A stretch of 64,000 nt of DNA from positions 44,675 through 108,674 of the forward strand of contig CADAFP010000004.1 in NCBI GenBank assembly GCA_902787185.1, in the 5' to 3' direction. Within the stretch, counting starts at the first letter, position 1, and each line of letters starts with the position of its first letter. This stretch comes from an uncultured Bacteroidales bacterium (GTDB lineage Bacteria; Bacteroidota; Bacteroidia; Bacteroidales; Muribaculaceae). Made by a program: the position numbers and the translations under genes. The notes under the pieces are model-generated. The model was not told the DNA's origin. It worked only from the letters and a program-made list of their open reading frames with translations, and did not search any database. Shown here piece after piece: positions 4,758-56,892 of this stretch.

Positions 4758-7019
4758 TTATAAGATGAAATCAATTAACTCTACGATGTCGGCTACATTG
4801 ATTGAACCATCACCATTGATGTCAGCGGCAACCTTATCAAAAGCCTCCTCATTCTGATGGTAACCCAGCACGAAGTCAACCAATTCCACCACATCGGCAA
4901 GATTGATGAGACCATCCCCGTTAACATCACCTATATCATAATGCATCCGCTCCAAAACGAGCCTCATGCCCGCCAGCGCGTCAATCTTGCCACAAGCCCC
5001 AAACTGGGCCGAATGTGCTCCATTGGTGAAATTGTCGTGGATGCCTGTGTGGTACATAATGTCCTTCACTTCGGCAACCGACAGATTGGGGTTGGCCTGC
5101 AGCCATAGGGCGATGATACCGGCAACGGTGGGTGTCGCCATCGATGTGCCGCTCATCGCTCCCCAATAATGCCCGTCATCGGTCTTCATCACTGTCATAT
5201 TGCCGCCACTGGCATAGCTTGAGTATCGGCTCACAGCAGAGACCACATAAACTCCAGGTGCACAGACTGTGGGCAATGCCTTTCCCGAGGGACCTTTTCC
5301 TGCGGCTTGGTAGCTCGAGAACTTGGCTGCATCGCCCACCGTAAATGAGCGGTCGGTGACGGTATATCCCCTGAACAGGGAATAATAGCTGTTTCGACCC
5401 ACATAAGCGCCCGCTGTGATGACAGAGTCGCAAACTCCTTGAGTGTTAATTGAACAGGAATCGCTGGCACCATTGTAGAAACCCCTATGCGATTGATTAT
5501 CCAAGGTGACAACTGGTGCCGTCACAAACGAGAATCCGGTGCATGAGTTGCAGGTCCAAGCATCGATGATTGTGGGCCTATTCACTTTGGGCCAAATGCT
5601 GATACCGATGGCGTATCGGCCTTTTTTGACATTATCAACGATGCCGTAATTCTTACTGATAAGGTTGTACACCAACAGGCTAAGTTGGTATTTCTTGCTA
5701 TATACCGAGTAGTTCACCTGACCCTTGATGTATCCGGTTGTGTCACGACTGGTGTCGTAAGTGAAATAGGTGCTTAATTCCGACGTGTCAATCAACGATG
5801 AGCCAGAATAAACACTTGATTCCCAGACAATCCTGTTTGTGTATTTGTCAAGTAAGTGATACTTGTAACTGATATTGGTTGCTGATGTGCGCATCCAGAT
5901 ATCGGCCATACACAAATAGTATTTGTATGTGGAATCGATGGAAGAGGAATTGTTGTAAGTGAGCAGCAGATTCAGCGGGTTGTCTTCGGTAGCTTCCTTA
6001 TAAGCATAGGTGCGGACACCGCCGTTGTTGCCCGCGGCGAAAACAAATATACGTCCAGGGCCCATAAGCTGGGTAACGACGTTTGCCAGATAGTCCTGGC
6101 CGTCGTGCGGCCCAGCAAAGGTGCTGATGCTCATGCTCATGACGCAAGGCTTACCGACACTGTCAGCATAGCTGTCAACATAGCGCAGACAGTTGGCAAT
6201 CTCGGTAGTGGAGATGGAGCCCTCGAGTTCACTCAAGGCACACATCACGATATCAGCATTAGGCGCCATGCCGCCATAGGGACCCACATGGGTGCCCGCG
6301 GCAATGCTGGTAGTGTGAGTGCCGTGACCTGTCGTTTTGTTATCAGTCTTGAGGGCATAAATCTCGTCATCGATGAACACTGATCCTGGCAAGCGGATGT
6401 TGTTGTTAAAGCGGGCAGGGTGTCCTGACCTGTCGGTCGTGCTATAGACTCTCTTGATGCGGGTCACGGCTGGATTGTCGCTACGTCTGAACGCAAGGTG
6501 CTGGTAGTCATAGCCAACGTCAAGAGTGGCGATAATCACACCGGTGCCGTCATAGGACTGTGGCAAACCATTATTGATTCCATCAAGAACTTGACCTGCA
6601 TGAGTCACGTTAAGGGTGCTATCGGTACACAATGTCATCTTGCGGCTGATTTCTATATCCCTCACACAAGGCATCTCGCAGATGCCGATGAGGTCATCTA
6701 CAGGAATCTGTGCCGTCACAAAGCCCTCAAAGCAGCAATTGACGACCACACCTGCCTGCTGCAGCTTGTCAATGGCACTCATGTCATCAACAGCAATAAA
6801 CGCATCCACCATTTCCTGCCCGTCAATCATGCGGGGAGGGAAGAATTGAGAGAAATGATAGGTACTGCGCACTGGAGGAGGCAAGTGATTGGTAAATGCC
6901 TGCTCATCAAGGAACTGCTTGACTGTCAACGGCAGGATGCGCTGAGCTTGCACGTTGATAGCCGTCAGTAGTAGTGCCATGATGACGGCAACAGATGTGA
7001 TAATCCTATGACTTTTCAT
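4758..7019 (-). CDS. Secreted S8 subtilisin-like serine peptidase with C-terminal dockerin (copy A)
   Basis: Predicted exported subtilase, 753 aa. The signal peptide is MKSHRIITSVAVIMALLLTA. An I9-like propeptide region spans about residues 30-125. The catalytic triad is readable as Asp167 (TLDVGYD), His232 (GHGTHTTSIA) and Ser626 (GTSMATPTVAG). A long insert separates His from Ser (about residues 340-560), as in Bacteroidales subtilases. The C-terminus is a dockerin with two repeats (GDVNGDGLINLADVVELVDF and DINGDGSINVADIVELIDFI) and no further sorting tail. It is the last gene of a leftward series with copy B and the GH53 galactanase; the 86-bp gap upstream shows no clear promoter, so co-transcription is likely. 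Confidence 0.92.
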   Translation of the reverse strand: MKSHRIITSVAVIMALLLTAINVQAQRILPLTVKQFLDEQAFTNHLPPPVRSTYHFSQFFPPRMIDGQEMVDAFIAVDDMSAIDKLQQAGVVVNCCFEGFVTAQIPVDDLIGICEMPCVRDIEISRKMTLCTDSTLNVTHAGQVLDGINNGLPQSYDGTGVIIATLDVGYDYQHLAFRRSDNPAVTRIKRVYSTTDRSGHPARFNNNIRLPGSVFIDDEIYALKTDNKTTGHGTHTTSIAAGTHVGPYGGMAPNADIVMCALSELEGSISTTEIANCLRYVDSYADSVGKPCVMSMSISTFAGPHDGQDYLANVVTQLMGPGRIFVFAAGNNGGVRTYAYKEATEDNPLNLLLTYNNSSSIDSTYKYYLCMADIWMRTSATNISYKYHLLDKYTNRIVWESSVYSGSSLIDTSELSTYFTYDTSRDTTGYIKGQVNYSVYSKKYQLSLLVYNLISKNYGIVDNVKKGRYAIGISIWPKVNRPTIIDAWTCNSCTGFSFVTAPVVTLDNQSHRGFYNGASDSCSINTQGVCDSVITAGAYVGRNSYYSLFRGYTVTDRSFTVGDAAKFSSYQAAGKGPSGKALPTVCAPGVYVVSAVSRYSSYASGGNMTVMKTDDGHYWGAMSGTSMATPTVAGIIALWLQANPNLSVAEVKDIMYHTGIHDNFTNGAHSAQFGACGKIDALAGMRLVLERMHYDIGDVNGDGLINLADVVELVDFVLGYHQNEEAFDKVAADINGDGSINVADIVELIDFIL

Positions 7020-7105: not shown

Positions 7106-9397
7106 TCATTCTTCGGGGTTAATGATGTAATCAATCATGTCAGTAACGTCAACGATATCAATAAGATTATCCTGGTTGTAATCCATCGCTTCAACCACGA
7201 CATTATCGGTGATATCGTAAAGGATATAGTCGATTAAGCGCACGATGTCATCTATGCCGATAAAACCGTCACCGTTGACGTCGCCAGGGATAACCATATT
7301 ACTCAGCAGGTACATGGCACCGGCCCAAGCGTCGATTTTGCCATTGGCACCGAAACGGTACCCGGTTTCTGACATGGTGAAACTGTCCTTGATTGACGTC
7401 TCGGCAATGATTCGTTTGATGTCACCAGGTGACAGGTCGGGCTTAATCTGGAGCCACTGTGCGATGATGCCGGCCACTGTCGGCGCTGCCATCGACGTTC
7501 CTGTCAATGCGCCCCAAGTGTTATAGTACTCATCGCGCATGGATGCTGCATTTCCCCAGGCATAAGAGGAGTATCGGCTAACGGCTGATACAACATTAAC
7601 GGCAGGAGCAGTAATGGTAGGCAATGCTTTACCAGTGGGGCCATAACCGCTGATTTGGAAACTCGTGTATCTGTAGTTCGACCCCACAGTCGGATTGAAG
7701 TTATCATAAACGAGACCTTCATTCTTGATGGAATAATAGCAATTGCGTCCGATGTAACCACCTGCCGAGATGATAGAATCGGCAACAGCGTAAGTGCCTA
7801 TTGAAACATAATCCGATGGTGCCCTGAAATAATCATTCACAGCACGGGTTACCGTGTCGCCGTTTTCGTTTACCTCTTCAACATAAACTGTACCTACATT
7901 GTTACGGCTGATTCTTCCATGGCATGCCCATGCATCAACCATGCAAGAACTTGCTAACCTGGGGTTGGTCACACTGGGTGGATAAACTGAGATACAGATA
8001 TGGTAGCGGCTCGTACGGCCTCCATTATCGTTTTCCCAGTAGCTTTTGGTTCTCAGATTATGGACATTGGCATCCAGGTCAAATTTATAGTTATTAGGAT
8101 TAAGGGAAATCAGCGCGGCAAGATAACCAGTGCCGTTGGCTGGGTCTGGCTCGAAATAATCGCTGAATTCCGAAGGGTCGATACGGGCATAGGACGTGAT
8201 ATAGTTCGATTTCCACACGATACGCCCGGTCAACTTATCAAGAATGAAGAATTGGCAGACAGGTCGAGTGTTCTTCGCTCGATTCCAGATATCCACTTGA
8301 ACATGTTCATAGTAATAGGCATCATCATTTCTTGAGTTGTCGCAACCCACCAGAATACTCATGGGTGCAGTGGGGGTCGAGTTGCCATAGGCGTAAAAGT
8401 TTTTCGCCCCGTTGTTGCCAGCGGCAATAACAAAGATGCGGCCAGGCCCTACGAGTTGGCTGATGGTTTTGGAAATCCTGTCCTGACCGTCATGCGGGCC
8501 GAAGGGTGTACTCACGCTCATGCTGATAACACAAGGTTTGCCAACGCTGTCAGCATAAGAGTAGATGTACTTGATGCAGTTCAAGACTTCGGTCTCAAGG
8601 AATCCCCACTTGAATGTTGAAGGGGCACACAGCACGATGTCGGAGCCAGGTGCCATACCTCCATAGCCGTTCACATGGGTGCCGGCAGCGATGCTTGCGG
8701 TGTGAGTGCCATGGTAGCCCGAGGGGTCATCGGTGGTCATTGTATCAAGCTGAGCCCCCATGAACACGGTGCCAGGCATAGTGTTACCGCCAATGACAAC
8801 AGGATGGCCAGTACTGTCGGCCGTGTTATAAACCCTTACGATGCGGGAGATATTCCTGTTGTCAGCCCGCATGAAGGCGCGATGCCTGAAATCAAAGCCA
8901 AAATCGATGATTCCCACCACGACGCCAGTGCCGTCATAGCCTTTGGGCAGGCCGAATTCTGAGCCGTTAATCAACTGTCCGGCATGTGTCACGCTCAGCG
9001 TGGTGTCGGTACACACATCAACGGTTCGGCTGATTTCGACATTGGTGACACCTACCATTCCGCAAACGTAATCCAATCGGCTCATGGGAATTTGGGCAGT
9101 GACAAAGCCATCAAACTCGCAATTGACCTTGACGCCCGCAGCCTTCAGCGACGGGATGACGCTACTGTCTCGGATGTCGATAAAGGCATCAATCATCTCC
9201 ATGCCATCGATGAGGCGTGGCTGAGCGTAACTGAGTGTCTGGCTGGCCCAATTGGGGACGTTTGGCAGTTTGGTCATTTCCAGATAGTTTGCCCGCTCGA
9301 GATAGAAGTGTTGCACCGACGAGGGCAAATTGTTTTTTAGTTGGCCGCTTGCTGCCAATGCCAACAATATGCTTGCAACAAATAATAACTTTTTCAT
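7106..9397 (-). CDS. Secreted S8 subtilisin-like serine peptidase with C-terminal dockerin (copy B)
   Basis: Paralogue of the neighbouring subtilase, 763 aa, collinear along its whole length. Signal peptide MKKLLFVASILLALAASG; Asp165 (IIDFGFDF), His229 (YHGTHTASIA), Ser635 (GTSMAAPTVAG). The dockerin repeats are GDVNGDGFIGIDDIVRLIDY and DYNQDNLIDIVDVTDMIDYI; the second repeat departs more from the DxNxDG calcium pattern. Only 37 bp separate it from the upstream galactanase, supporting an operon. The pair looks like an old tandem duplication, since the central insert regions differ considerably. Confidence 0.92.
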   Translation of the reverse strand: MKKLLFVASILLALAASGQLKNNLPSSVQHFYLERANYLEMTKLPNVPNWASQTLSYAQPRLIDGMEMIDAFIDIRDSSVIPSLKAAGVKVNCEFDGFVTAQIPMSRLDYVCGMVGVTNVEISRTVDVCTDTTLSVTHAGQLINGSEFGLPKGYDGTGVVVGIIDFGFDFRHRAFMRADNRNISRIVRVYNTADSTGHPVVIGGNTMPGTVFMGAQLDTMTTDDPSGYHGTHTASIAAGTHVNGYGGMAPGSDIVLCAPSTFKWGFLETEVLNCIKYIYSYADSVGKPCVISMSVSTPFGPHDGQDRISKTISQLVGPGRIFVIAAGNNGAKNFYAYGNSTPTAPMSILVGCDNSRNDDAYYYEHVQVDIWNRAKNTRPVCQFFILDKLTGRIVWKSNYITSYARIDPSEFSDYFEPDPANGTGYLAALISLNPNNYKFDLDANVHNLRTKSYWENDNGGRTSRYHICISVYPPSVTNPRLASSCMVDAWACHGRISRNNVGTVYVEEVNENGDTVTRAVNDYFRAPSDYVSIGTYAVADSIISAGGYIGRNCYYSIKNEGLVYDNFNPTVGSNYRYTSFQISGYGPTGKALPTITAPAVNVVSAVSRYSSYAWGNAASMRDEYYNTWGALTGTSMAAPTVAGIIAQWLQIKPDLSPGDIKRIIAETSIKDSFTMSETGYRFGANGKIDAWAGAMYLLSNMVIPGDVNGDGFIGIDDIVRLIDYILYDITDNVVVEAMDYNQDNLIDIVDVTDMIDYIINPEE

Positions 9398-9434: not shown

Positions 9435-11117
9435 TTATTGCTCCAGAATGATGTCGATGAGCGAGGTGACATCATTAATGGTGTAGTTACCGCTCTGATC
9501 CACATCGGCATTGATGGCATTGAACTCTGTGACTTCTTCTCCCAGAATATAGTCAATCAGGATGGTCACGTCGGCAATATCAACGAAGCCGTTACCGTTC
9601 ACGTCGCCAAGCAGGACAACGGGTTGAGGCACGATGACATCAAGCCTGAACGTGAGGTTGTCCGCATCAAAGGTGAACAGGTAGTCGCTACCGTCACCAG
9701 TGAAGTAGTAGGAGTAGTTGTTGTTGCGCTTGGCAGTGGAATATTGCGTGCCTGTGCTGATAGTCGTTGTGGCAGTGGGGCCATAGCGGTAGGTGCTGTT
9801 AAAAGCCGTCCAGTCGTTGTTCCATTCATTAGGACCGCCGTCAGCAAATACAAAGTAGATGGGGGCGTTGATGGTCAATGTGTCAACGTATGTGCCATTG
9901 CCCAGGTTGGTCATTTTACCCATGGGCTGCGTCAGGCTCCAGTTGCCCTCGCCACCCACGATATAGATGCTCGCGCTATCGGTAGGCTCCACAGGATCTT
10001 CACCGCTGCCGTCAAGAAAGCCTGCCATCTCAAACAGGGCGTCCATCACTTGGCCGTTGGCATTGTCCCACCAGCCACAGTTATACCAGTCGGTGGTGAC
10101 ATGGTTGGTGTAGTTGATGCCATACTCGTTGGCTTCAGGGAACCACCAGTACAGGCCATTGACGTTGCTATGGGCATTCAGCGTGTTAATAAGGGCGGTG
10201 GTGAACGCCTTCTGTCCCGCTTCGGTGGCGGGCCAGGTGGATTGCAGGTCATAGTTAGCTCCACTGGGATAGTAGGCATGAGGATAGCCCGTCTCCACAA
10301 TCTGGATTTTCTTGGTGGGGTAGGTGGACTCGAGAGTTGTCAACAGACCGTCGAGAACGCTCAAGTCGCCATGCCAGTAGGGATAATAACTCAGGCCGAT
10401 GATGTCATAATCGCTTGTGTGGCTCTGCAGCGCCTGGTAGAACGAGGTCACGTTGCTCACGCGGCTCATCTCGGTGTGAACGACAATCTTTGCACTTGGG
10501 CAAACCTCACGGCAAGCGCGTATGCCTTGCTTGAGGTAATTGGCAAAGTTGGCGAACGTGCCATTGCCGTAGTTGGCACCGCTGGGATAACAATGTCCCG
10601 TGGGCCACAACATGCCGTAGGTCACCTCGTTGCCCACCTGGACAAAGTCGGGTTTGGCACCAGCGGCGATCATGGCGTTGAGCACACGGCACGTGTAGCT
10701 GTACACGCTGTCTCCCAGGGCACTGGTGACTGTCCATGACGATGGCGTGCTGTGCTGACCTGGGTCGGTCCAGGTGTCGCTGTAATGGATGTCCAACAGC
10801 AGGTTGAACCCGGCTGCCTTGATGCGCTGTCCCAACGCGATGACGAAGGGCAGGTCCTGGCATACGCCCTCACCTTGATCCTCGGCTCCAGCCTTTGACG
10901 GGTCAACAAACAGGCGCACACGCATGGCGTTCATGCTGTTTGACTTGAGATAACCGAGCACATCGGTGATTCTGTTACCGTTCTCGTCAAGATAACGGGC
11001 ACCGCGCTCTTCATACTTCGGCAGCAGGGAAATGTCACCACCGACATACTTAACCATGGCATTGCTGATGACACTGGTGAACATCAAGCAAGCCAGCAGG
11101 AGGTAAATTTTTCTCAT
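9435..11117 (-). CDS. Secreted GH53 endo-beta-1,4-galactanase with C-terminal dockerin
   Basis: Predicted arabinogalactan endo-beta-1,4-galactanase, which cuts beta-1,4-galactan side chains of pectin. Signal peptide about residues 1-20. The GH53 TIM barrel spans about 22-370, with LDIHYSDTWTDPGQ, the acid/base Glu164 in VQVGNEVTYG and the nucleophile Glu275 in QIVETGYPHAY. Residues about 385-495 form a beta-rich domain starting SIYIVGGEGNW that resembles SusE/SusF-like starch-binding modules (inference). The dockerin ends the protein (GDVNGNGFVDIADVTILIDY, then DVDQSGNYTINDV). First gene of the GH53-subtilase-subtilase run. Released galactose could feed galK/galM at 31.5 kb. Confidence 0.93.
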   Translation of the reverse strand: MRKIYLLLACLMFTSVISNAMVKYVGGDISLLPKYEERGARYLDENGNRITDVLGYLKSNSMNAMRVRLFVDPSKAGAEDQGEGVCQDLPFVIALGQRIKAAGFNLLLDIHYSDTWTDPGQHSTPSSWTVTSALGDSVYSYTCRVLNAMIAAGAKPDFVQVGNEVTYGMLWPTGHCYPSGANYGNGTFANFANYLKQGIRACREVCPSAKIVVHTEMSRVSNVTSFYQALQSHTSDYDIIGLSYYPYWHGDLSVLDGLLTTLESTYPTKKIQIVETGYPHAYYPSGANYDLQSTWPATEAGQKAFTTALINTLNAHSNVNGLYWWFPEANEYGINYTNHVTTDWYNCGWWDNANGQVMDALFEMAGFLDGSGEDPVEPTDSASIYIVGGEGNWSLTQPMGKMTNLGNGTYVDTLTINAPIYFVFADGGPNEWNNDWTAFNSTYRYGPTATTTISTGTQYSTAKRNNNYSYYFTGDGSDYLFTFDADNLTFRLDVIVPQPVVLLGDVNGNGFVDIADVTILIDYILGEEVTEFNAINADVDQSGNYTINDVTSLIDIILEQ

Positions 11118-12397: not shown

Positions 12398-14053
12398 TCA
12401 GGACAGAATCAAGTTGATGAGTGCGTTAATGTCGGTGATATTCACCGCATCATCGCCGTTGACGTCACCTGCATCATCAAAAACGCCCCTTAAAATCATG
12501 TCAATAACGGCATTGATGTCGGCGATGTTCACGCTGCCGTCGCCGTTCACGTCACCTGTCAATGCGTCCCTGATGAGGTCATCCACAATCTGCCCGAAAT
12601 AGGGATGCCAATTCTCGTTGGCTTGATAGGCGCCAGCCGTCCCTTGAGGGACATGAAGCGTGCGTCCGGAATAGTCAAAATTACCACCTTCGGTCCATAC
12701 CACGAAAATACAGTCTCCACTATCTACATTTGAAAGGTTGGCGATGTGACTAAACACCTCTTTCAGTCCGTCGCAGTAAGCGAATGCGTAGCTGCCGATG
12801 GAGTCAACTGAACTGGGTATGGTGGCGCTCATCAGGCTGCTGCATCCGGCGAACGCATCGCTGCCGATGGTTTTGACGGAGTTAGGGATGATTACGTTCT
12901 CCAGGCTGATGCAACCGGCAAACAATTTGGCATTGATGGTTTTAATGGAGTTGGGGATGGACACGTCCGTCAGTTCATAGCAGTCCAGGAAAGCTGCTTT
13001 GCCGATGTGTTTGACAGAGTTGGCAATGGTGGCGCTTGTCAGCCCTCCACAACCCTCAAACGCGCTTTTGCCGATGTATTTAACGGGGCTGGGGATGGTG
13101 ATGCTCATCAGACCGCTGCAGGAGTAGAACGCGGCATCGCCGATGGTGTCTACCGAGTTAGGGATAATCGTGTTTTGGCCCCCCACAATCAGGGTATTGC
13201 TTGCTGTCTCAATGATGGCGTTACAATCATCACGGGAATCGTATTTCTCGTTTTCGGCAGCCACGGTGATGCTCGACAGACTCCCGCAGTCACTGAATGC
13301 GATTTTGCCGATAGAGTTAACCGATTTACCGATGGTGACGCTCGTCAGTCCGCTGCAGCCAAAGAAGGCTGCTTCGCCGATGCTCTTGACCGAGTCGGGA
13401 ATGATGGCGCTTGTCAGTCCGGTGCAGTAGTAGAATGCCCTATCGCCGATGGCGGTGATAGTGTCGGTGATGACAGTGTTTTGACATCCCACAATCAATT
13501 TATTGGTTGCGGTCTCAATGATGGCGTTACAATCATCACGGGAATCGTATTTCTTGTTTCCGTTTTTAACTGAGAGTGTTGTCAGACCACCGCAATCACC
13601 GAACGCAATGTCACCGATAGAGGTGACTGAGGCGGGGATGGTGACAACTGTCAGGCCGATGCAGCCAGCGAACGCGCCCCGGCCGATGGTGGTGACGGAA
13701 CTGGGGATGGTGATGTTCATCAGTCCGCTACAGTCAAGGAATGCCTCCTCGCCGATGCCGGTAATGGTGTTGGGTAGGGTGATGTGCGTCAATCCCACAC
13801 AATGAGAGAACGCAAGATCGCCAATGGCAATGACTTCATAGGTGGTGTCATTATAGGTGACGGTACTGGGGATAATCACTTCGCCGGTGTAATTGTCGTT
13901 ATCGTTCCAGACATTCTTGTCACCGTAGGTAACGGTGACGGTTGTGTCGGTTTTATTGTAATAGATGCTATCCACTTCAAAGTCATAGGCGGTGGCGGTG
14001 GCTGGCAGCAGCAGGGCCAGCAGCAGGAGTGCGGATGTGAGCAGGTGGTTCAT
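12398..14053 (-). CDS. BspA-like leucine-rich repeat (LRR_5) protein with dockerin (LRR-A)
   Basis: Secreted LRR protein of 551 aa. I start it at the ATG at 14053 because that gives a clean signal peptide (MNHLLTSALLLLALLLPATATA) and because the -7 promoter box at 14090-14097 lies inside the longer open frame. About 15 LRR_5 repeats of 23 residues follow the pattern IPNSVxxIGxxAFxGCxGL. Two copies of a non-LRR insert (YDSRDDCNAIIET...NTVI) interrupt the array. The C-terminus is a compact dockerin (GDVNGDGSVNIADINAVIDM and GDVNGDDAVNITDINALIN). BspA-like proteins are usually surface adhesins; the ligand here is unknown. Confidence 0.88.
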   Translation of the reverse strand: MNHLLTSALLLLALLLPATATAYDFEVDSIYYNKTDTTVTVTYGDKNVWNDNDNYTGEVIIPSTVTYNDTTYEVIAIGDLAFSHCVGLTHITLPNTITGIGEEAFLDCSGLMNITIPSSVTTIGRGAFAGCIGLTVVTIPASVTSIGDIAFGDCGGLTTLSVKNGNKKYDSRDDCNAIIETATNKLIVGCQNTVITDTITAIGDRAFYYCTGLTSAIIPDSVKSIGEAAFFGCSGLTSVTIGKSVNSIGKIAFSDCGSLSSITVAAENEKYDSRDDCNAIIETASNTLIVGGQNTIIPNSVDTIGDAAFYSCSGLMSITIPSPVKYIGKSAFEGCGGLTSATIANSVKHIGKAAFLDCYELTDVSIPNSIKTINAKLFAGCISLENVIIPNSVKTIGSDAFAGCSSLMSATIPSSVDSIGSYAFAYCDGLKEVFSHIANLSNVDSGDCIFVVWTEGGNFDYSGRTLHVPQGTAGAYQANENWHPYFGQIVDDLIRDALTGDVNGDGSVNIADINAVIDMILRGVFDDAGDVNGDDAVNITDINALINLILS

Positions 14054-14089
14054 AGTCGTTACTGTTATGATTGTTTCAGAATCTTGATG

Positions 14090-14097
14090 CAAAATTA
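14090..14097 (-). promoter_or_regulatory. -7 box of LRR-A
   Basis: CAAAATTA (TAATTTTG on the minus strand), 37 nt before the chosen ATG at 14053. It argues against the longer open frame reaching 14164. Confidence 0.6.
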
Positions 14098-14310
14098 GGA
14101 GAAATAACCAAAGAAAGCAACTTTTTCTTTCACGAATCACACTATGGCACGCAACCGAATCCATTTTCTGGCCACCACTGGGCTCTGATTCAACAGTTTT
14201 TTAACGGATTCATTGTTCTTGATGGATTATAAATCCAAGTTAATCTGCGCAATTTTCGGGCAGTTTATTATTTTATTCTGATGCGAGGTGTGAATTAGTC
14301 GGATTTTTTG
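14098..14310. other. Intergenic region between divergent LRR-A and LRR-B
   Basis: The whole gene-free stretch is 14054-14376 (323 bp). It holds the two outward promoters (14090-14097 and 14311-14318). Between them is AT-rich DNA in which I see no gene, hairpin or repeat of note. Confidence 0.5.
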
Positions 14311-14376: not shown

Positions 14377-16071
14377 ATGAACAAGAATAAATTACTTTCA
14401 AAGATGTTGTTTGTGATGGCCATCATGGTCTGTGCAGGCGCTTTTACGTTATCGGCTGCCGACTTCTTGGTAGATGGTATCTATTACAATGTGATTAACG
14501 ACAATGAGGTAGAGGTGACCAGCCCTGACTCAGTCAAGTATGCTGGCGAGGTGTTCATTCCATCGACTATAGTCAGTGACGGCACGACCTATCGTGTCAC
14601 ACGCATCGGCCGAAACGCTTTTTGCAGTTGCAAGGACTTGACCTTGGTTGATATCCCCGAGGGTGTTACCTCGCTTGGCTTCCAAGCTTTCTGTTCTTGC
14701 ACGGCGCTCGAGAATGTCGATTTGCCTAACTCGCTGGTGACGCTTGAGGATTATGCGTTCTACGGCTGTTCTTCATTCACTTCGTTCAATATCCCGAGAA
14801 ATGTCGCTGAAATTGGCTATATGACGATCAAGGGATGCCGCCAGTTGCAGTACTTCACCTGCAGTTCGCTCAATCAGCACTTCAAGGCTGTTGACGGCGT
14901 ACTGTACAGCAAGGATATGAAAGTGCTGTTCAGCTATCCGCAAGCCGCTTCGGCTACCACCTTTGCCGTTCCCAGTCCAGTTGCCAGGATTCATGAGTAT
15001 TGTTTCATGTCCTGTACTAACCTGACTGAGGTCACCCTACCCGAGACGCTCCGTCACATCGAGATGAACATCTTCAGGGGTTGTCGCAATCTTGAATCTT
15101 GCTATATTCCTGATAGTGTCAACTATATGGGCGTTACGGTGTTCGGAACATGCACCAATCTCAAGAGCGTGCATCTTCCCGCCAATCTCGATTCCATTCT
15201 GAGTAGCACTTTTTCTGACTGCACAAGCCTCACCGAAGTCACTATCCCCCGTAAGGTGAAATTCATTGGAGAGTATTGCTTCTATGATTCTGGTGTCAAG
15301 ACGGTGAATATTGAGGAGGGCAGTATGCTTGAGACTTTAGCCCATGATGCGTTCTCCCATAGCCCCATAGAAGCCATTGACCTGCCAAATACCGTTAAGA
15401 CAATTGACTATCAGGCTTTCATCAACTGCCAGTCATTGAGGAAGGTCCACATGAGTGAAGGGCTTACGACTATTGGCGGTGCTGCATTTACCTTATGTCC
15501 TTTGCTGGAAGAAGGCTACATTCCAGGCGGGGTTTCCGTTATTCGTAATGCCTTTACCGACGACATCTCGTTAAAGCGGATGCAAATCGGCAAGAAAGAT
15601 TCCGCGCCGGGAGTCACGTTGATTAAGAATGCGGGTATTTGTGGGTGCCCACTTGAATATTTGGAATTGGGTGCCAATGTGGACTCGCTGGAAAGCATCG
15701 CTTTGGCTAATCTTGAACACCTCAAGGTGCTCATCAGCTGGGCTGCAATACCCCCGCATTGTAACAGCAACTATAGCTCATTCCTCCCTGATCCCCAACG
15801 ATTGAATGCCATCCTCTATGTTCCCAAGGCATCTTTGGAAGCTTATCAGACAGCCAACGATTGGAAGAACTTCAGGACCATCGTGCCCATCGAGGACGTG
15901 GGCGACATCAACGGCAGCGGAGCAATTGAGATTGCCGACGTCACCGACCTGATTGACCAAGTGCTGGCAGGTGAGATTGAGAATCCCGCCATTTCCGACG
16001 TTGATTTTGACGGTATGGTAGGCATCAGTGATGTGACAGGCCTTATCGACAAGATCCTATCAGGAAACTAA
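14377..16071 (+). CDS. BspA-like leucine-rich repeat (LRR_5) protein with dockerin (LRR-B)
   Basis: Secreted LRR protein of 564 aa. The signal peptide (MNKNKLLSKMLFVMAIMVCAGAFTLSAA) is followed by DFLVDGIYYNV, a start shared in spirit with the other three LRR proteins here. About 14 LRR_5 repeats follow, more divergent than in LRR-A. The final repeat is capped by LYVPKASLEAYQTANDWKNF, the common end of BspA arrays. The dockerin is GDINGSGAIEIADVTDLIDQ then DVDFDGMVGISDVTGLIDK, of the ADVT-type subclass. Divergent from LRR-A and closed by a hairpin terminator. Likely an adhesin; the binding partner is unknown. Confidence 0.87.
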   Translation: MNKNKLLSKMLFVMAIMVCAGAFTLSAADFLVDGIYYNVINDNEVEVTSPDSVKYAGEVFIPSTIVSDGTTYRVTRIGRNAFCSCKDLTLVDIPEGVTSLGFQAFCSCTALENVDLPNSLVTLEDYAFYGCSSFTSFNIPRNVAEIGYMTIKGCRQLQYFTCSSLNQHFKAVDGVLYSKDMKVLFSYPQAASATTFAVPSPVARIHEYCFMSCTNLTEVTLPETLRHIEMNIFRGCRNLESCYIPDSVNYMGVTVFGTCTNLKSVHLPANLDSILSSTFSDCTSLTEVTIPRKVKFIGEYCFYDSGVKTVNIEEGSMLETLAHDAFSHSPIEAIDLPNTVKTIDYQAFINCQSLRKVHMSEGLTTIGGAAFTLCPLLEEGYIPGGVSVIRNAFTDDISLKRMQIGKKDSAPGVTLIKNAGICGCPLEYLELGANVDSLESIALANLEHLKVLISWAAIPPHCNSNYSSFLPDPQRLNAILYVPKASLEAYQTANDWKNFRTIVPIEDVGDINGSGAIEIADVTDLIDQVLAGEIENPAISDVDFDGMVGISDVTGLIDKILSGN

Positions 16072-25245: not shown

Positions 25246-25263
25246 AGATTGTTGTTAAAAAAG

Positions 25264-25294
25264 TTGTTTTCTTTCATTATTTCCCTTAATTTTG
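25264..25294 (+). promoter_or_regulatory. Promoter of LRR-C
   Basis: TTG at 25264-25266, 20-nt spacer, TAATTTTG at 25287-25294. The leader is about 31 nt before the ATG at 25330. Confidence 0.65.
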
Positions 25295-25329
25295 CGTCAA
25301 TATTAACAACAATAACCCCCTATATATCT

Positions 25330-28098
25330 ATGAAACACCTTTTCCAATCCCTACTCCTGTTGATGGCCCTCCTGCTACCAGCCACCGCCACCGCCCACGA
25401 CTTCTACGTCGACGGCATTTACTACAACATCAATGGCACCACCGTCACCGTCACGTACAAGGGAACAAATTCATGGAGTCACTACACTTACTCCGGCACT
25501 GTGATCATTCCCTCCACTGTTACCTACAACGGCACCACTTACTCCGTCACCTCCATTAACGATTATGCGTTTCATGGTTGTACGAGTCTCACAAGCGTGA
25601 CGATTCCCAACTCCGTCACTACCATCGGCGGTAATGCGTTCGCTACCTGCTATCGCCTGGCGAGCGTAACCATAGGCAACTCCGTCACTACCATCGGGGA
25701 TAGTGTGTTCTATGAATGCCATGACCTGACGAGTGTGACGATTCCCAACTCCGTCACTATCATCGGTGATCGTGCTTTCTATCATTGTAGTGGCCTGACA
25801 AGCGTGACCATAGGCAACTCCGTCACTACCATCGGGGATAATGCATTCGAGGGTTGCAGTGGACTGATGAGCTTGACGATTCCCAACTCCGTCGCCACCA
25901 TCGGTGACTATGCGTTCTGGAGTTGCAGTGGCCTGACGAGTGTGACGATTCCCAACTCGGTCACCAGTATCGGCGAATTTGTGTTCCGGGAATGCAGCGG
26001 CCTAAAGAGAGTAATAGTGGAAAGCGGTAATCCGAAATACGATTCACGAGACAATTGCAATGCAATTATCGAAACGCAATCCAATACATTGATTTGCGGC
26101 TGCGAGAATACCGTTATCCCTAACTCCGTCACCACCATCTGCTACGGGGCGTTCTATGGCTGCTGTAATCTGGCGAACATAGAAATCCCTAATTCCGTTA
26201 CCTCAATTGAGGATTACGCATTCTATAATTGTGGTCTAACGAGTGTGTCCATTCCCTATTCAGTCACCTTCATCGGATGGGAAGCATTCTCTAGATGCGC
26301 GTTGACAAGTGTGACCATCCCAAACTCGGTCACAACCATATACAACACTGCGTTTAGACAAAACCATAGTCTGTCGTGCGTCACTATTCCAAACTCGGTA
26401 ACTTACATTGGTAGCTGTGCGTTTGAGGACTGTAGCTTAAATGATGTGTATAGTTTTATCACTGACCTTTCAACAGTGATGTGTGATGATGATGTGTTTG
26501 GTGTGCGTTTTGGTTGGGCCGAAGAAAATATCAACTTTTCAGCTCGCACACTTCATGTGTTGCCAGGAATGGCGAGCGTTTACCAAGCCGATTCAAATTG
26601 GAACTGGTATTTTGGTTCTATTGTGGAGATGGGGCCTATGGTGGCGACATCTATTGAGTTAGAACAGTCGGCTGCTGTGATGACTATAGGGGAGTCTTTG
26701 CAACTCAGGGCAAAGCTCCAGCCTATTGAGGCGATTTATAACGATGTGGCTTGGTCGTCGAGTAATGCAGCGGTGGCTACGGTGGATGACAACGGGTTGG
26801 TGACGGCGCATGGTGTGGGGATGGCGACGATTACGGCGATGACGACGGATGGCAGTAATTTGTCGGCGTCGTGCGTGGTGACGGTGAAGAGCCTGAGTGC
26901 CACGGAGTGCCTGTCGATGCCTGACGGCGAGGTGCTGCACGGTGAGGCCATCACGATTCCTGTGCGGATGACGAATGCGGCGACGGTGCTGGCATTCCAG
27001 ACAGACATCTTCCTGCCTGAGGGCTTTACCATCGACACCAACGAGGACAATGAGCCGATTGTCACTCCGTCGAGCCGCCTGACCGATGACCACATTATCA
27101 TGACGCAAGTCGCCAACAACGGTGCGGTGCGCGTGGTATGCTATACGCCGACGATGCAGCCTATCAGCGGCAACGAGGGCGACCTGTTCTATATCACGGT
27201 CAACGTGCCTGCCGACGCTGCGGGCGACTACGCCGTATATCTGCGCAACTCGCGCCTGACCATCGACGACTTTACCGAGGTGCGCATCCCCGACGCTGGC
27301 GCGGTGATTGACGTGAAGACCTATATCCCCGGTGACGTGAACGACACGCACTCGGTCAACGTGGCCGACATTGTGACGACGGTGCGCTATGTCCTGGATA
27401 TGGACCCCAGCCCGTTCATCTTTGACGCTGCTGACATGAACGGCGACGGTGAGGTGACGGTGACCGACATCATGCTCATCGCCCGTCAGATCCTCTACCC
27501 GACGATGACAGCTCCGCGCCATGCACCCGTACTGTCTGTCAACGGCGATCGCATGAGCGGCGAGGGCATCACCCTGTCGGCGGGCGAGACGCGCACGGTG
27601 AGCATCAATCTGGACAACGCGCTTGACTATAGCGCCTTCCAACTCGACCTGCGTCTGCCCGAAGGCCTGTCGGCAACCAACTTCCGCCTGACGGAGCGCG
27701 CCGCCAGCCATGCCCTTGAGGTAAATACGCTGAGGAACGGCAGCATCCGTGCCCTGTGCTACACACCCGCCATCGAGGCCATCGACGGCAACAGCGGCGC
27801 AGTGCTGATGTTTGACGTGACCGCCACGGGCACCGTCACGGGCGATATCACCGTGGACGACATCGAACTGGTGACCACGGCCTGCCAAGGCGTACACTTT
27901 GACGCCTTCACCATCGGCGTACAGACGGCAACCGCCGTCACCGAACTGTCGAGCGGCAAGACCGTTGCCAAAGTCGAGTACTTCAACCTCGCGGGCCAGC
28001 GCCTGACGCGCCCCGCCACCGGTGTGACACTCATCGTCACCACCTACACCGACGGCACCCGCACAACGACCAAACGACAACAACACAACGAACAATAA
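25330..28098 (+). CDS. Multimodular surface protein: LRR_5 array, Big_2, two cohesin-like modules, dockerin and T9SS-like tail (LRR-C)
   Basis: 922 aa from the ATG at 25330, chosen for its signal peptide (MKHLFQSLLLLMALLLPATATA) and for lying just after the promoter. Order: LRR_5 repeats at about 45-430, very regular (IPNSVTTIGDxAFxxCSGLT); Big_2 Ig-like domain at about 438-520 (ATSIELEQSAAVMTIG...WSSSNAAVATVD); cohesin-like beta-sandwich at about 522-665 (ITIPVRM...LAFQTDIFLPEGF...GDLFYITVNV); dockerin at about 668-723 (GDVNDTHSVNVADIV, DMNGDGEVTVTDIM); second cohesin-like module at about 731-871 (VSINLDNALDYSAFQLDLRLPEGL). The tail from about 880 (VEYFNLAGQRL...GVTLIV) resembles a type IX secretion C-terminal signal. 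This is the only dockerin protein here whose dockerin is internal. The module calls are by pattern; the cohesin assignment is the least secure. Confidence 0.85.
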   Translation: MKHLFQSLLLLMALLLPATATAHDFYVDGIYYNINGTTVTVTYKGTNSWSHYTYSGTVIIPSTVTYNGTTYSVTSINDYAFHGCTSLTSVTIPNSVTTIGGNAFATCYRLASVTIGNSVTTIGDSVFYECHDLTSVTIPNSVTIIGDRAFYHCSGLTSVTIGNSVTTIGDNAFEGCSGLMSLTIPNSVATIGDYAFWSCSGLTSVTIPNSVTSIGEFVFRECSGLKRVIVESGNPKYDSRDNCNAIIETQSNTLICGCENTVIPNSVTTICYGAFYGCCNLANIEIPNSVTSIEDYAFYNCGLTSVSIPYSVTFIGWEAFSRCALTSVTIPNSVTTIYNTAFRQNHSLSCVTIPNSVTYIGSCAFEDCSLNDVYSFITDLSTVMCDDDVFGVRFGWAEENINFSARTLHVLPGMASVYQADSNWNWYFGSIVEMGPMVATSIELEQSAAVMTIGESLQLRAKLQPIEAIYNDVAWSSSNAAVATVDDNGLVTAHGVGMATITAMTTDGSNLSASCVVTVKSLSATECLSMPDGEVLHGEAITIPVRMTNAATVLAFQTDIFLPEGFTIDTNEDNEPIVTPSSRLTDDHIIMTQVANNGAVRVVCYTPTMQPISGNEGDLFYITVNVPADAAGDYAVYLRNSRLTIDDFTEVRIPDAGAVIDVKTYIPGDVNDTHSVNVADIVTTVRYVLDMDPSPFIFDAADMNGDGEVTVTDIMLIARQILYPTMTAPRHAPVLSVNGDRMSGEGITLSAGETRTVSINLDNALDYSAFQLDLRLPEGLSATNFRLTERAASHALEVNTLRNGSIRALCYTPAIEAIDGNSGAVLMFDVTATGTVTGDITVDDIELVTTACQGVHFDAFTIGVQTATAVTELSSGKTVAKVEYFNLAGQRLTRPATGVTLIVTTYTDGTRTTTKRQQHNEQ

Positions 28099-28153: not shown

Positions 28154-28240
28154 GCGCGCTGTCAAACAACTGTCTTCAAACAACTGCATTCAAACAACTT
28201 GAACTATGTTGAACAACTTAAACAACACTTCTTTTTGGCA
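28154..28240 (+). repeat. Partial intergenic repeat copy R2
   Basis: Three CAAACAACT units, then TTGAACTATGTTGAACAAC and TTAAACAACA, matching the left part of R1 and R3. It lies between the two cohesin-like genes. Confidence 0.65.
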
Positions 28241-28311
28241 TTTGCGCACTATTAAAAACTACAGATTAATCTGATTATTTCTGAAGGCTGGCGCGAAAGA
28301 ATCCGTTCATT

Positions 28312-28347
28312 CCATTTAATCCGTTTAATCCGTTTAATCCGTTTAAT
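28312..28347 (+). repeat. 9-bp tandem repeat CCGTTTAAT
   Basis: CCATTTAAT followed by three perfect CCGTTTAAT units. The same ATTAATCC vocabulary recurs in R1 and R3. Confidence 0.75.
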
Positions 28348-28405
28348 CCGTGGACATAATATCCGAGTTGTGTTTCTTATATTTTTTGTTTTCTAATTTA
28401 AGAAG

Positions 28406-29053
28406 ATGATGATGAAGAGGATATTGTTTTTGATGATGGGGGTTGCGGTGGCGATGTGTGCCGCTGCAGTGGATAGATTTTATATCGATGATTTCTCGAT
28501 TGAGAAAGGGGTGACACTGCCTGTGAGCATCCTCTTGGAGAACGAGACGGTCTATACCGCCTTCCAGTGCGACCTGTATCTGCCCGAGGGGTTGACGGCA
28601 ACCAACTTCAAACTGACCTCCCGCAAGCACAGCAGCCACACGCTGTCGGTCATCGCACAGCCCGACGGTGCCCTGCGTTTGTTGTCCTACTCGCTCCAGC
28701 TCAAATCCTATAGCGGCACCAGCGGAGCGTTGGTGACGATGAACATCACCGCAGCTGACACCTTTGCCGGTCCCGCTGTCATCGCCCTGCGCAATGTCAT
28801 GTTCTCGAATCTGATGGGCGAAGAGGTTCCTCTCGATGACGCTGAGTGCACAGTGACCATTCCTACCGCCGCCTTGCCTGGCGACGTGGACGAGGATGGC
28901 TTCATCACCATCGGCGACGCGACGGCCCTCATCGATCACCTGCTGGGCGGCACTGTATTGACTTTTAACGCAGAGAACGCCGATGTGGATCAGGACGGCA
29001 ACATCACCATCGGCGACGTCACCGCCATCATCGACCAACTACTATCAAAATAA
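28406..29053 (+). CDS. Small secreted protein: one cohesin-like module plus a C-terminal dockerin
   Basis: 215 aa. Three consecutive ATG codons begin the gene (28406, 28409, 28412), giving MMMKRILFLMMGVAVAMCAAA as signal peptide. Residues about 23-155 form a beta-sandwich closely similar in pattern to the second cohesin-like module of the upstream protein (VSILLENETVYTAFQCDLYLPEGL, ATNFKL, RLLSYSLQL...GTSGALVTMNITA). Residues 159-213 are a dockerin with two intact repeats (GDVDEDGFITIGDATALIDH, DVDQDGNITIGDVTAIIDQL). Nothing else is present. In classical cellulosomes a cohesin plus dockerin on one polypeptide is an adaptor scaffoldin; that role here is inference. It follows the multimodular LRR-C gene in the same direction. 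Confidence 0.82.
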   Translation: MMMKRILFLMMGVAVAMCAAAVDRFYIDDFSIEKGVTLPVSILLENETVYTAFQCDLYLPEGLTATNFKLTSRKHSSHTLSVIAQPDGALRLLSYSLQLKSYSGTSGALVTMNITAADTFAGPAVIALRNVMFSNLMGEEVPLDDAECTVTIPTAALPGDVDEDGFITIGDATALIDHLLGGTVLTFNAENADVDQDGNITIGDVTAIIDQLLSK

Positions 29054-38471: not shown

Positions 38472-39758
38472 ATGATGAAATTTAAAAGATTAGTACCGAC
38501 GATGCTCTCTTTGTTTTCGGTATGCTTGTGTGCCGGTGCTGGTACCGACGGTCTCATGTGTGATGCAGCAAGACACGTGCTCAAGTCCACACGTCCTCTC
38601 GAGCGTGTGGCTTACTATCCTGGTATGGCGGTTTATCGTCAGTCGGGAGGTGGTTTTGCCGTTGTTTCGAGTGACGAGAAGCCACGGGTTTTGGCCTATT
38701 CTCGCTCTGGTTCTCTGGACATGTCCCATCTCAATCCGGGTTTTAACTGGTGGCTAAATGCTACCAAAAAGGTGATGATGCAGTCTGGTCCCAAGCGCGA
38801 GACCACCAAGCCCGACCCAAGCCGGTTTCCCGTGGCTGTCCAACCTCTCATAACCACCATTTGGGGACAACGTGAACCCTTCAAGTTCATGTGCCCGTTC
38901 GACAAGTATGTACAAGACCATAGCCTGTATGGCACCTATACGCCAGATTTGGGACACTATTCGGTGGGGTGCGGGCCACTGGCGATGGCGCAGTACATGT
39001 ATTTCTACAAGTTCCCCAATCATGGCGTTGGGGAGGAATCGGTAACGGTCAAGTATGATTCAGGTAATGTCACGTTGACTGTCGATTTTGAATCCTCGAC
39101 CTACGAGTGGGACCAGATGATTGACGATTATCAGGGCGAATACACCGCTCGTCAGGGCGAGGCTGTTGCGCGGTTGTGCTACGATTGCGGCGTCGCGGCC
39201 CAAACCACTTGGAACAACTTGGGTGGAGGAACCACCGATGAAAAGATTCTCAATGCCTTCATCAATCACTTCAACTACAATGACACGGCCCATTACATCC
39301 CGCGTTCGCGCTACGATGAACCCACATGGATGGAGTATATCTACAGCATCCTGTCAAGTGGCAACCCGATTCTGTACTCGGCCAAGGACATTAACATGGA
39401 GTATTTCATCATCGCTGGCCACAATTTCATCATCGACGGCTATGACGAGAATGGCCTGGTTCATGTGAACTGGGGATGGTATGGAATTGAAAATGGCTAT
39501 TTTGACATCGCCTTGCTGAATGTGCTTGACTACACCTATGATGACTGGCAAGCAATGTATGTCGGGCTTTATCCCAATCGTGAGGCCCTCATCGGGGATG
39601 TTGACCAGGATGGCCGTATCACCATTGCCGACGTGACTGCGCTCATCGACATCATCCTGAACAAAACGCCGTCAACAACAGCCGACGTTGACCTTGACGG
39701 CAACATCAGCATTGCCGATGTGACAGCACTCGTCGATATGATTCTTGCTGGAAATTAA
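38472..39758 (+). CDS. Secreted C10 (streptopain-like) cysteine peptidase with C-terminal dockerin (second copy)
   Basis: 428 aa, shorter than the C10 enzyme at 534 because the extra beta modules are missing. Signal peptide about residues 1-22 (MMKFKRLVPTMLSLFSVCLC). A propeptide-like segment (GGGFAVVSSDEKPRVLAYS) is followed by YSVGCGPLAMAQYMYFY with catalytic Cys167 and by AGHNFIIDGYD with His317, then HVNWGWYG. The dockerin directly follows the catalytic domain (GDVDQDGRITIADVTALIDI, DVDLDGNISIADVTALVDM), with no other tail. The dockerin is of the ADVTALID subclass shared with the small cohesin-dockerin protein and the nuclease. Confidence 0.92.
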   Translation: MMKFKRLVPTMLSLFSVCLCAGAGTDGLMCDAARHVLKSTRPLERVAYYPGMAVYRQSGGGFAVVSSDEKPRVLAYSRSGSLDMSHLNPGFNWWLNATKKVMMQSGPKRETTKPDPSRFPVAVQPLITTIWGQREPFKFMCPFDKYVQDHSLYGTYTPDLGHYSVGCGPLAMAQYMYFYKFPNHGVGEESVTVKYDSGNVTLTVDFESSTYEWDQMIDDYQGEYTARQGEAVARLCYDCGVAAQTTWNNLGGGTTDEKILNAFINHFNYNDTAHYIPRSRYDEPTWMEYIYSILSSGNPILYSAKDINMEYFIIAGHNFIIDGYDENGLVHVNWGWYGIENGYFDIALLNVLDYTYDDWQAMYVGLYPNREALIGDVDQDGRITIADVTALIDIILNKTPSTTADVDLDGNISIADVTALVDMILAGN

Positions 39759-55074: not shown

Positions 55075-56892
55075 CTATTTGCCCAGAATGATGTCGGTGA
55101 TGCCGGTGACGTCGCTGATGCTGATTTGGCCGTCATGGTCAACATCGGCAACTTCCATGTCAATCACGCCCTGCTTGCCACCCAGGATGTAGTCGATGAT
55201 GATAATCACGTCGCTGATGCCCACAACGCCATCGTGGTCAACGTCGCCCAGGAGCACATCAAAGTCGCCACCCATACCGGTGAGGGTAACGTGCTGGATG
55301 TTGGACCAGACGCTCTCGCTGCCGTCGGTGTAAATGGCCTTGACCATGTATTCAAAGACGCCACCCGCAAGCTCCTGCACGGTGTAGCAGGTGTCGGTGA
55401 TGCCGCTCACGTTGCGCCAGGTGGAGTCGCCCTCTTCAACAATCACGCGGCGCGGTGCCATAGCGGTGAGGTCACCGTTATAGATGTCCACACTATAGAT
55501 ATAGAAACGCTTCTTGGCTGCAATCATCTCGAGTTTGATGTTGCTGGCGTCGCAATCCCTGAGTACAACGGTGTAGTCGGCAGGAGAGTCGGTGATGGTG
55601 ACCGTCTCGCGGGCGTTGCCGCACGACACGATGACCGAACTGGCGTCGCTGGTGCCGTTGCTGGAAATCCAGTTCTTGGCATTGAACACGACAGTCACGG
55701 TATTCCCCAGTTCCAGTTCTGGACTGACGAGATAGCCCGCTGCATTAGAAGTGCCCACTTTCAGGCTCTGGTTAGCAGCGGTATAGAGTTTGTAGCCTGT
55801 CCATCCGGGATTGTCGGTGTATCTGTCCAGCTGCGATGAGATGTCATTGCTGCCATCGGCTGTGGCGTTGACATTGGAGAAGTTCTCGCTCATCATCAGG
55901 GTGGCAGCCTCGCCTTGGGTAAGGCGATTGACCTTGAGGGTGTAGCTCGACACGTCGCCGCCACGGCTCCAGTCGGCGCGGAATGAATGACCCGTCACTG
56001 CCGTAGTGTCAACAGCATACATCACGGGCACAATCTTGACGATAGTGTCTTCAGGAATATCTTCCCCGGTCCATGAGGTGTTCTGCTTGGTGCCCCAAAT
56101 GTATTCGGCCAGTTCGGGATGGTCAACGAAGGGGTTGCGGTTGCCCTGCTCTATATATACCCCCTCGTTACGAGCGATTTCCTTAGCACTCACAGGGTCG
56201 GCGCGGTGCCACTCCAGAAGCATCCTGATGGACCAGTCAGAGAATGCCTTGTAATTGTTGGAACTGTAATCCAGCTGATCGCAGCCGGGCCAGTTATGCA
56301 CATCGCTCTTGTAGCAGGTCACCATATAGAAATAGATGCGCGCAAAGTCACCCTTGTACTCGTCGTCGGGTTCAAAAACCGTTGAGGTGTAGCCGTTATA
56401 GGTGCTTGTACCCAACTTGCCCCTCATGCTCACGCCCATTTCCTCGTTCACGTAGGTGATGCCACCGGCGCACACGCCATAAGGGTTATTGCTGCGGCGC
56501 TGGTTCACATAGCCGTCGGTGGGAATGAGCATGGTCAGGTCGGTGTACATGGGATCTACCTCGCCGCCAAACCAGCTCTTGGGGAAAGAGTGCTCGCGGT
56601 TGAGGCCCTGGCCAACGTAGGATGCGCTCCCCACATGGTAGGAATCGTAGTTGTACTTGCAGGTGGAGTACATGTCGATGTAGTAACCGTCGCTACCCAT
56701 GTCGGTGGTGTTAAATGCCTGCCACAGGTAGTTGTAGCTCAACTTGGTGTGGGTGTAGATGATACCCTCGAGAGCCGTCATCAGTCCCTCGTCATGCTTG
56801 CCCACAGCATTGGTATAAAAGCCTTCGGGGATGTCGGCCCAAGCAGTCATCCCAATAAGCGCACTCAATAATACTGTCGTAATCTTTTTCAT
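55075..56892 (-). CDS. Secreted endonuclease I (EndA/NucM-like) with C-terminal dockerin
   Basis: 605 aa. Signal peptide MKKITTVLLSALIGMTAWA. The endonuclease I domain at about 20-265 has the catalytic GLNREHSFPKSWFGG (His101), TDLTMLIPTDGYVNQRRSNNPYG (Asn130, Arg132/133) and the following GICY/V region. In many relatives a His is found in the DLxHL position where this protein has DLTML. Residues about 290-545 hold Fn3-like and carbohydrate-module-like beta domains. The dockerin ends the protein (GDVDHDGVVGISDVIIIIDY, DVDHDGQISISDVTGITDI). Only 4 bp follow the HD-protein gene, so the two are one transcript. Likely degrades extracellular DNA or RNA, for example in biofilm or for nutrient gain. 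Confidence 0.9.
   Translation of the reverse strand: MKKITTVLLSALIGMTAWADIPEGFYTNAVGKHDEGLMTALEGIIYTHTKLSYNYLWQAFNTTDMGSDGYYIDMYSTCKYNYDSYHVGSASYVGQGLNREHSFPKSWFGGEVDPMYTDLTMLIPTDGYVNQRRSNNPYGVCAGGITYVNEEMGVSMRGKLGTSTYNGYTSTVFEPDDEYKGDFARIYFYMVTCYKSDVHNWPGCDQLDYSSNNYKAFSDWSIRMLLEWHRADPVSAKEIARNEGVYIEQGNRNPFVDHPELAEYIWGTKQNTSWTGEDIPEDTIVKIVPVMYAVDTTAVTGHSFRADWSRGGDVSSYTLKVNRLTQGEAATLMMSENFSNVNATADGSNDISSQLDRYTDNPGWTGYKLYTAANQSLKVGTSNAAGYLVSPELELGNTVTVVFNAKNWISSNGTSDASSVIVSCGNARETVTITDSPADYTVVLRDCDASNIKLEMIAAKKRFYIYSVDIYNGDLTAMAPRRVIVEEGDSTWRNVSGITDTCYTVQELAGGVFEYMVKAIYTDGSESVWSNIQHVTLTGMGGDFDVLLGDVDHDGVVGISDVIIIIDYILGGKQGVIDMEVADVDHDGQISISDVTGITDIILGK

Follow-up and report, generated by a model that had tools for sequence, protein, structure and literature searches.

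The gene at 28406..29053 (+) in a 64,000-nucleotide stretch of DNA from an uncultured Bacteroidales bacterium (we refer to the whole stretch as the window) encodes a small protein that we read, with reasonable confidence, as a monovalent adaptor scaffoldin in a genus-wide cohesin-dockerin surface system, the scaffolds of which are probably T9SS-anchored. Its predicted anatomy supports a likeness to ScaC, the adaptor of Ruminococcus flavefaciens. In the mechanism we propose, the protein would leave the cytoplasm via the Sec pathway, its cargo-class dockerin would plug into a scaffold cohesin, most likely one of the cohesin-dockerin-cohesin (coh-doc-coh) protein encoded directly upstream, and its single cohesin would then be free to receive another dockerin-bearing protein. 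The adaptor would thereby add to, or re-code, the attachment points available in a system that may carry far more than 100 proteins (among them LRR proteins, peptidases and a glycoside hydrolase), on scaffolds probably held at the surface by T9SS-type C-terminal signals.

One cohesin-like domain and one dockerin in a small protein

The open reading frame starts with ATG and encodes 215 residues, in which the sequence-only reading had seen a signal peptide, one cohesin-like beta-sandwich and an intact two-repeat dockerin; the ORF, Pfam, an AlphaFold model and Foldseek all agree with this description. Residues 1-21 (28406..28468, +) read from the translation as a Sec-type signal, ending MCAAA with VDR following and showing no lipobox, and form in the model a helix at residues 4-17 with low pLDDT. 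The cohesin-fold domain, which we call Coh3, covers residues 24-151 (28475..28858, +) and is joined by a short linker to a type I-like dockerin at residues 158-213 (28877..29044, +), where Pfam Dockerin_1 matches above its curated cut-off (E 1.8e-10). Both calcium-binding loops, read from the translation, are complete, loop 1 at residues 160-171 (28883..28918, +) with D160/D162/D164/D171 and loop 2 at residues 193-204 (28982..29017, +) with D193/D195/D197/D204; each is an F-hand loop followed by a helix (residues 169-179 and 202-214 in the model). A degenerate dockerin was ruled out, as both loops are intact. The Pfam EF-hand matches of the protein are weak; these, and an E 0.19 match of the dockerin stretch to an unrelated family, were taken as noise. 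By domain content, one cohesin and one dockerin on a chain predicted to be secreted, the protein is a monovalent adaptor scaffoldin. Seven intact homologues of identical architecture (48-61% identity) were found in other ruminant-gut MAGs, a conservation that rules out a chance open reading frame.

The modelled fold of Coh3

Three lines of evidence mark Coh3 as a cohesin-fold domain: the fold of the model, a local profile and the matches of that profile to PDB sequences. The AlphaFold2 model, for which the input was an 11-row alignment of the window protein with ten relatives, has a mean pLDDT of 87.8, and the sandwich at residues 24-151 reaches 91-97 per ten-residue block. Absence of the cohesin topology in a fold search had been set beforehand as the outcome that would refute the cohesin-like domain, and the protein passed this test: Foldseek against the PDB returned 126 matches at E <= 0.001, and all 50 listed are cohesin chains. 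The best is 5nrm_A (E 1.5e-8), the R. flavefaciens ScaC cohesin 5lxv_A is also present (E 4.7e-7), and the Clostridium perfringens NagJ cohesin 2jh2_C gives a TM of 0.78 by target length, the highest among the matches listed; TM by query length is 0.36-0.53, for a query that also includes the signal and the dockerin. As modelled, Coh3 is a cohesin-type jelly roll, and a generic Ig-like or CBM fold was ruled out, the listed matches being all cohesin chains. Pfam Cohesin (PF00963) had no match to the protein at E <= 1, so that cohesin-like is the right word and a fold search was needed.

The local profile, A1, is an alignment of 14 cohesin-like domains with Coh3 among them. It matched ten PDB sequences at E <= 1, eight of which are NagJ, cohesin or cellulosomal scaffoldin entries (four NagJ, the Archaeoglobus cohesin 2xdh and three cellulosomal scaffoldins), the remaining two being guamerin and an endonuclease. 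NagJ 2jh2 is the nearest solved relative by this profile (E 4.6e-4), but that cohesin is a module of a glycoside hydrolase (NagJ/GH84C), not of an adaptor. Q54 and D56, on the third strand of Coh3, are invariant in the 11-row alignment, and the aspartate lines up with an aspartate of the NagJ cohesin in the comparison of A1 with the PDB. Across the genome to which the window belongs (3.22 Mb in 102 contigs, 80.9% complete), A1 marks 22 places at E <= 1, 17 of them strongly (E <= 4.2e-13), and Pfam Cohesin marks seven, five above cut-off, one being the ORF directly upstream of the small protein; at an equally loose limit, Pfam Cohesin matched two of 14 control genomes, one above cut-off.

A conserved pair of scaffold and small protein

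The gene directly upstream (25249..28098, +; 949 aa from a TTG, with the start likely at an internal ATG near 25330) encodes a protein that the sequence-only reading had not mentioned, with two cohesin-like domains either side of a dockerin; from the ORF, Pfam and A1 it reads LRR_5, Big_2, Coh1, dockerin, Coh2 and C-terminal tail. Coh1 (26905..27315, +) includes a Pfam Cohesin match above cut-off in the genome search, the middle dockerin (27331..27495, +) is recognised by Pfam and falls in a separate class by class profiles, Coh2 (27547..27927, +) is recognised by A1, and the tail (27952..28080, +; YFNLAGQ...DGTR) is a possible T9SS sorting tail. A second model, of Coh1 to the tail of this scaffold, drew mainly cohesins among its 50 listed Foldseek matches, along with some long multi-domain beta proteins, and its tail has a block pLDDT of 32-70. 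Tandem short repeats, GAAATACAA and AATCCGTTT, lie between the two genes (28094-28351).

A further copy of the pair lies on contig C11 of the same genome, its small protein being 53% identical to that of the window. Scanning a species genome collection for both small proteins turned up 11 loci, the titles of which point to ruminants or to RUG (rumen) assemblies and bear the labels Muribaculaceae, Prevotellaceae, Bacteroidaceae or Bacteroidales. From these loci, regions of the own genome and 20 selected regions, the last hand-picked from the cohesin match list and in many cases for a small ORF near a larger one, we classified 19 small coh-doc and 26 coh-doc-coh proteins, all of them distinct. 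Directly upstream of 18 of the 19 small proteins, on the same strand and no more than 301 nt away from open frame to open frame, lies a coh-doc-coh frame; the upstream scaffold frame of the 19th (L069) is broken. An unbiased subset, the seven intact small proteins found by small-protein similarity alone (L064, L065, L066, L068, L069, L070 and L073), has an intact scaffold upstream in six cases and a frame-broken one in the seventh. The broken frame is at L069:1-1450, in MAG RUG755, and an assembly error there is possible. Coh1, Coh2 and Coh3 form separate classes, the nearest neighbour lying in the own class for 70 of 71 domains, and the pair is found repeatedly in an uncultured Bacteroidales genus of the ruminant gut.

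Coh3 is a separate conserved class and diverges too far for Pfam Cohesin to recognise it; both features would also suit a small protein that is itself anchored cargo, its dockerin attaching it to the scaffold and its cohesin-fold domain binding a carbohydrate or host ligand instead. Three relatives in fact bear an FGE-sulfatase-like domain in addition to the cohesin-like domain and dockerin, as cargo would (L067:8001-9398, L087:2072-4708 and L092:2484-4598). We nevertheless think this unlikely, as every listed Foldseek match is a cohesin chain, Q54 and D56 are invariant with the aspartate shared by the NagJ cohesin, and the gene is conserved beside the scaffold. We prefer the adaptor reading, in which Coh3 would bind dockerins.

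Two classes of dockerin

In sequence, the small-protein dockerins are like the cargo dockerins, with a consensus near IADVTxLIDxIL, twice, and the consensus of the scaffold middle dockerins differs (VTVTDVVxTAQYIL..NPxPF..AADMNGDGxITVTD). The cargo profile outscores the scaffold profile on each of the 19 small-protein dockerins (67.1 bits vs. 42.7 bits for the window protein), and leave-one-out classification placed all 26 scaffold dockerins and all 25 cargo dockerins correctly. Because its dockerin is of the cargo class, the small protein would be expected to dock where cargo docks, whilst the scaffold's own dockerin would take another partner.

With a single cohesin and a single dockerin on each chain, the small protein might alternatively polymerise with itself, Coh3 accepting its own dockerin class and the chains being tethered at one end to the scaffold. 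The two repeats of this dockerin are 76% identical to each other (16/21), which is compatible with dual-mode docking. We consider a self-polymerising subunit quite improbable, given that the Coh3 class is distinct from Coh1 and Coh2 and that monovalent adaptors are described, in passages of PMC11557425 and PMC3197198, as type-switching or repertoire-widening. An adaptor that links the scaffold to other dockerin-bearing proteins remains our preferred reading.

Dockerin-bearing cargo

Eleven dockerins had been counted in the window from the letters, and the window indeed has 11 dockerin ORFs, nine of them dockerin-only and two of these nine below the Pfam cut-off. Each of the nine ends in its dockerin and has, by reading, a Sec-type N-terminus. 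They comprise two C10 peptidases (534..2912, +, and 38472..39758, +), two S8 subtilases (4758..7019, -, and 7106..9397, -, the second at 20.7 bits, below the Pfam cut-off of 22.9), one GH53 protein (9435..11117, -), three BspA-type LRR proteins (12398..14164, -; 14377..16071, +, found by a local profile and at 17.8 bits below the Pfam cut-off; and 52460..54802, +) and one secreted protein that we take to be nuclease-like (55075..56892, -).

With 150 of 304 candidates scored, the genome as a whole gave at least 152 dockerin matches (E <= 0.1), some of them the split halves of a single dockerin or a pair of dockerins in the same protein, vs. about 17 cohesin-like domains; at the same limit, five of 14 control genomes had matches, two above cut-off. 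The families on 24 scanned dockerin ORFs of this genome, drawn from the 30 best-scoring dockerin loci and many of them ending at the locus edge, were LRR_5 in six, CotH, FGE-sulfatase, DUF285 and NAGPA in two each and Cthe_2159 in one; no cellulase family was listed among the 24, and the window has its one GH53. Because the sampled cargo consists mostly of proteins other than cell wall hydrolases, we set aside a classical cellulosome and use the term cellulosome-like. Of the 30 dockerin loci, 29 were parsed, a neighbouring dockerin ORF being taken for L022. The dockerin is at the end of 26 of the 33 dockerin-only ORFs (17 of 24 from genome loci and nine of nine from the window) and internal or near the N-terminus in the other seven. 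R. flavefaciens FD-1 is given 222 dockerin proteins in PMC2930009, a table of which has 28 LRR and 16 peptidase entries.

The proposal that the small protein bridges enzymes to a surface scaffold is well supported as anatomy, because a two-cohesin scaffold lies upstream, the genome has its at least 152 dockerin matches and the adaptor's own dockerin is of the cargo class. We infer that Coh3 binds dockerins, and likewise the pairing of cohesin to dockerin, a surface location and a role of the scaffold tail.

Probable surface anchoring and export signals

Three PorU sortases in the own genome score above the NCBIfam cut-off, which points to at least part of a T9SS. One PorU gene is expected per genome; the three found here are near full model length and clustered on one contig (C2:91917-101587, L106). 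SprA_N had no match in this genome and likewise none in the control genomes. In a number of scaffolds and related proteins, the C-terminal domain aligns along its full length with the T9SS CTDs of the own genome and of G039, a genome from another Bacteroidales family (hhalign probability 95.6). The window scaffold and its closest kin have a tail of 45 residues there instead, and the window tail aligns weakly with T9SS CTDs (hhalign probability 28.7, over 13 columns). The NCBIfam matches (E <= 1) of four scaffold-type proteins included no T9SS CTD model, and the 11 Por_Secre_tail matches in the own genome, two of them above cut-off, fall on no cohesin protein. We consider T9SS-type C-terminal signals the probable means by which the scaffolds are held at the surface. 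A C-terminal tail of the form VxYYNxAGQ...GVTLVVTTYTDGTR..K recurs at 34 places in the own genome, including 27952-28080 of the window, and may be a shortened T9SS signal. At least four of the 34 share a frame with a dockerin, among the dockerin matches listed, and all four of these frames also hold an A1 domain.

Export signals were compared across 38 dockerin ORFs, 29 from genome loci and the nine dockerin-only ORFs of the window. CTD or tail profiles matched three of the 38, all three cohesin proteins, and none of the 33 dockerin-only ORFs (two of which are cut before the stop). Neither the small protein nor the sampled dockerin cargo carries a recognised outer-membrane export signal, and the nine dockerin-only proteins of the window are of Sec type, as would be expected if the cohesin and dockerin organised proteins within the periplasm. 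Such a periplasmic assembly seems to us very improbable. BspA-type LRR proteins and C10 and S8 peptidases, all present in the cargo, are families usually found on the outer surface, and several scaffolds end in CTD-like domains; both points argue against a periplasmic assembly.

The C10 peptidases allow a comparison with relatives. We sought them in 20 Bacteroidales genomes with no dockerin matches, where they are present in 13, and read 25 loci; nine of the 25 are cut before the stop, one (L173) was left out as a 148-aa frame and not the 265-aa peptidase frame, and 15 are complete. The CTD profile matched eight of these 15 and did not match the other seven, and the dockerin profile matched none. 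In the window, a dockerin forms the C-terminal end of each of the two C10 peptidases. In the one protein family compared, the dockerin appears to occupy the place where relatives often carry a surface-sorting domain. It is possible, if doubtful, that docking has for the most part taken over from the T9SS sorting domain as the code for surface sorting in the genus: a few CTD-ended scaffolds would carry the T9SS address, more than 100 CTD-less dockerin proteins would reach the surface by docking, either captured there or crossing the outer membrane as folded complexes, and the small coh-doc protein would multiply the docking sites.

Comparison with known systems

The reference for the ScaC adaptor scaffoldin is reportedly Rincon 2004. 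Like the window protein, ScaC is small and secreted, with an N-terminal cohesin and one dockerin, and its host species likewise has a very large dockerin set, as set out in a part of PMC3197198. The two differ in that the host of ScaC is Gram-positive and that Coh3 is at most 10% identical to the ScaC cohesin 5lxv; unlike ScaC, the window protein has as its partner a coh-doc-coh scaffold with a C-terminal tail, encoded directly upstream. As a class, monovalent adaptor scaffoldins are defined in PMC11557425 by a dockerin and a single cohesin, both of which the window protein has. That study surveyed 305,693 genomes, metagenome-based genomes excluded, and its consulted sections name no Bacteroidota producer. 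They do describe a Coh2-Doc1-Coh1 protein of Limihaloglobus sulfuriphilus, with a dockerin between two cohesins like the window scaffold, and, as here, dockerin proteins with fused domains that cellulosome producers seldom have; L. sulfuriphilus differs in belonging to the PVC superphylum, in having 13 dockerin-fusion proteins and in that the same sections mention no T9SS-type tail (PMC11557425).

Closer in broad group and habitat are the rumen Bacteroidetes in which dockerins and few cohesins have been counted (PMC6071333, PMC5830445, PMC4035507), although the relevant passages of these papers describe no small adaptor, gene pair, dockerin classes or anchoring. They report Bin136 with five dockerins and one cohesin gene, among the tandem-cohesin bins, and Bin129 with two cohesins (PMC6071333), the Prevotellaceae genome RUG606 with a two-cohesin protein (PMC5830445) and Bacteroidaceae-assigned inserts with cohesins and dockerins, yet no reported producer (PMC4035507). 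Dockerins are also noted in cockroach Alistipes, Bacteroides and Bacteroidales cells in a passage of PMC10266427; passages of two other papers report no cohesins or dockerins in the genome studied (PMC5831590) and none associated with cellulases in the gut community studied (PMC8810776). Cellulosome-type assembly is described, in excerpts of PMC11557425 and PMC6118326, mainly for Clostridia-like bacteria. The sequence-only reading had called such adaptors foreign to the textbook picture of Bacteroidales, which is fair, but cohesins and dockerins of rumen Bacteroidetes had already been counted in the sections cited (PMC6071333, PMC5830445, PMC4035507).

A prior description of this adaptor or of the scaffold pair was not found in a search of CC-licensed full texts, most subscription papers lying outside these. 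Bensoussan 2017, on cellulosomal components of the bovine rumen, is said to include tested interactions and may lessen the novelty. Cohesin-dockerin surface systems are outside the standard picture of Bacteroidales, and the locus gives the question of a Bacteroidetes producer named genes for scaffold, adaptor and cargo, with clear binding predictions. If our reading is true, the rumen has a Gram-negative group that assembles its surface complexes from modules, possibly with docking in place of individual T9SS signals.

Distribution across the genus and the order

We searched 61 genomes, the own genome, 36 congeners and 24 from other Bacteroidales families. A1 domains were found in 38 of them (the own genome, 35 of the 36 congeners, G039 and G057), and dockerins at E <= 1e-5 also in 38 (all 37 genomes of the genus and G039), with none in the 14 controls; the genomes of the genus have from 11 to at least 87 dockerin matches each. 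The one congener with no A1 match, G013 (83% complete, 290 contigs), has 40 dockerin matches.

Among 344 evenly drawn Bacteroidales genomes, A1 domains occur in 24 and dockerins at E <= 1e-6 in 68, the latter in none of the 14 controls. Dockerins were present in 20 of the 24 cohesin-positive genomes vs. 48 of the 320 cohesin-negative ones (Fisher p 3.8e-12, a test that ignores shared descent), and the 20 double-positive genomes span 13 families; the other four cohesin-positive genomes had no dockerin at E <= 1e-6, and 48 of the 68 dockerin-positive genomes had no A1 match. The four sampled genomes from other genera of the own family gave no dockerin match, and one of the four, G271, has one A1 domain. 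G039 encodes two proteins with eight and five A1-type domains, both ending in a Por_Secre_tail above cut-off; Pfam Cohesin matches the five-domain protein (E 8.9e-16), not the eight-domain one. Both lie at L102 (G039:C25:205500-225000), with their A1-type domains set among InlB-type repeats.
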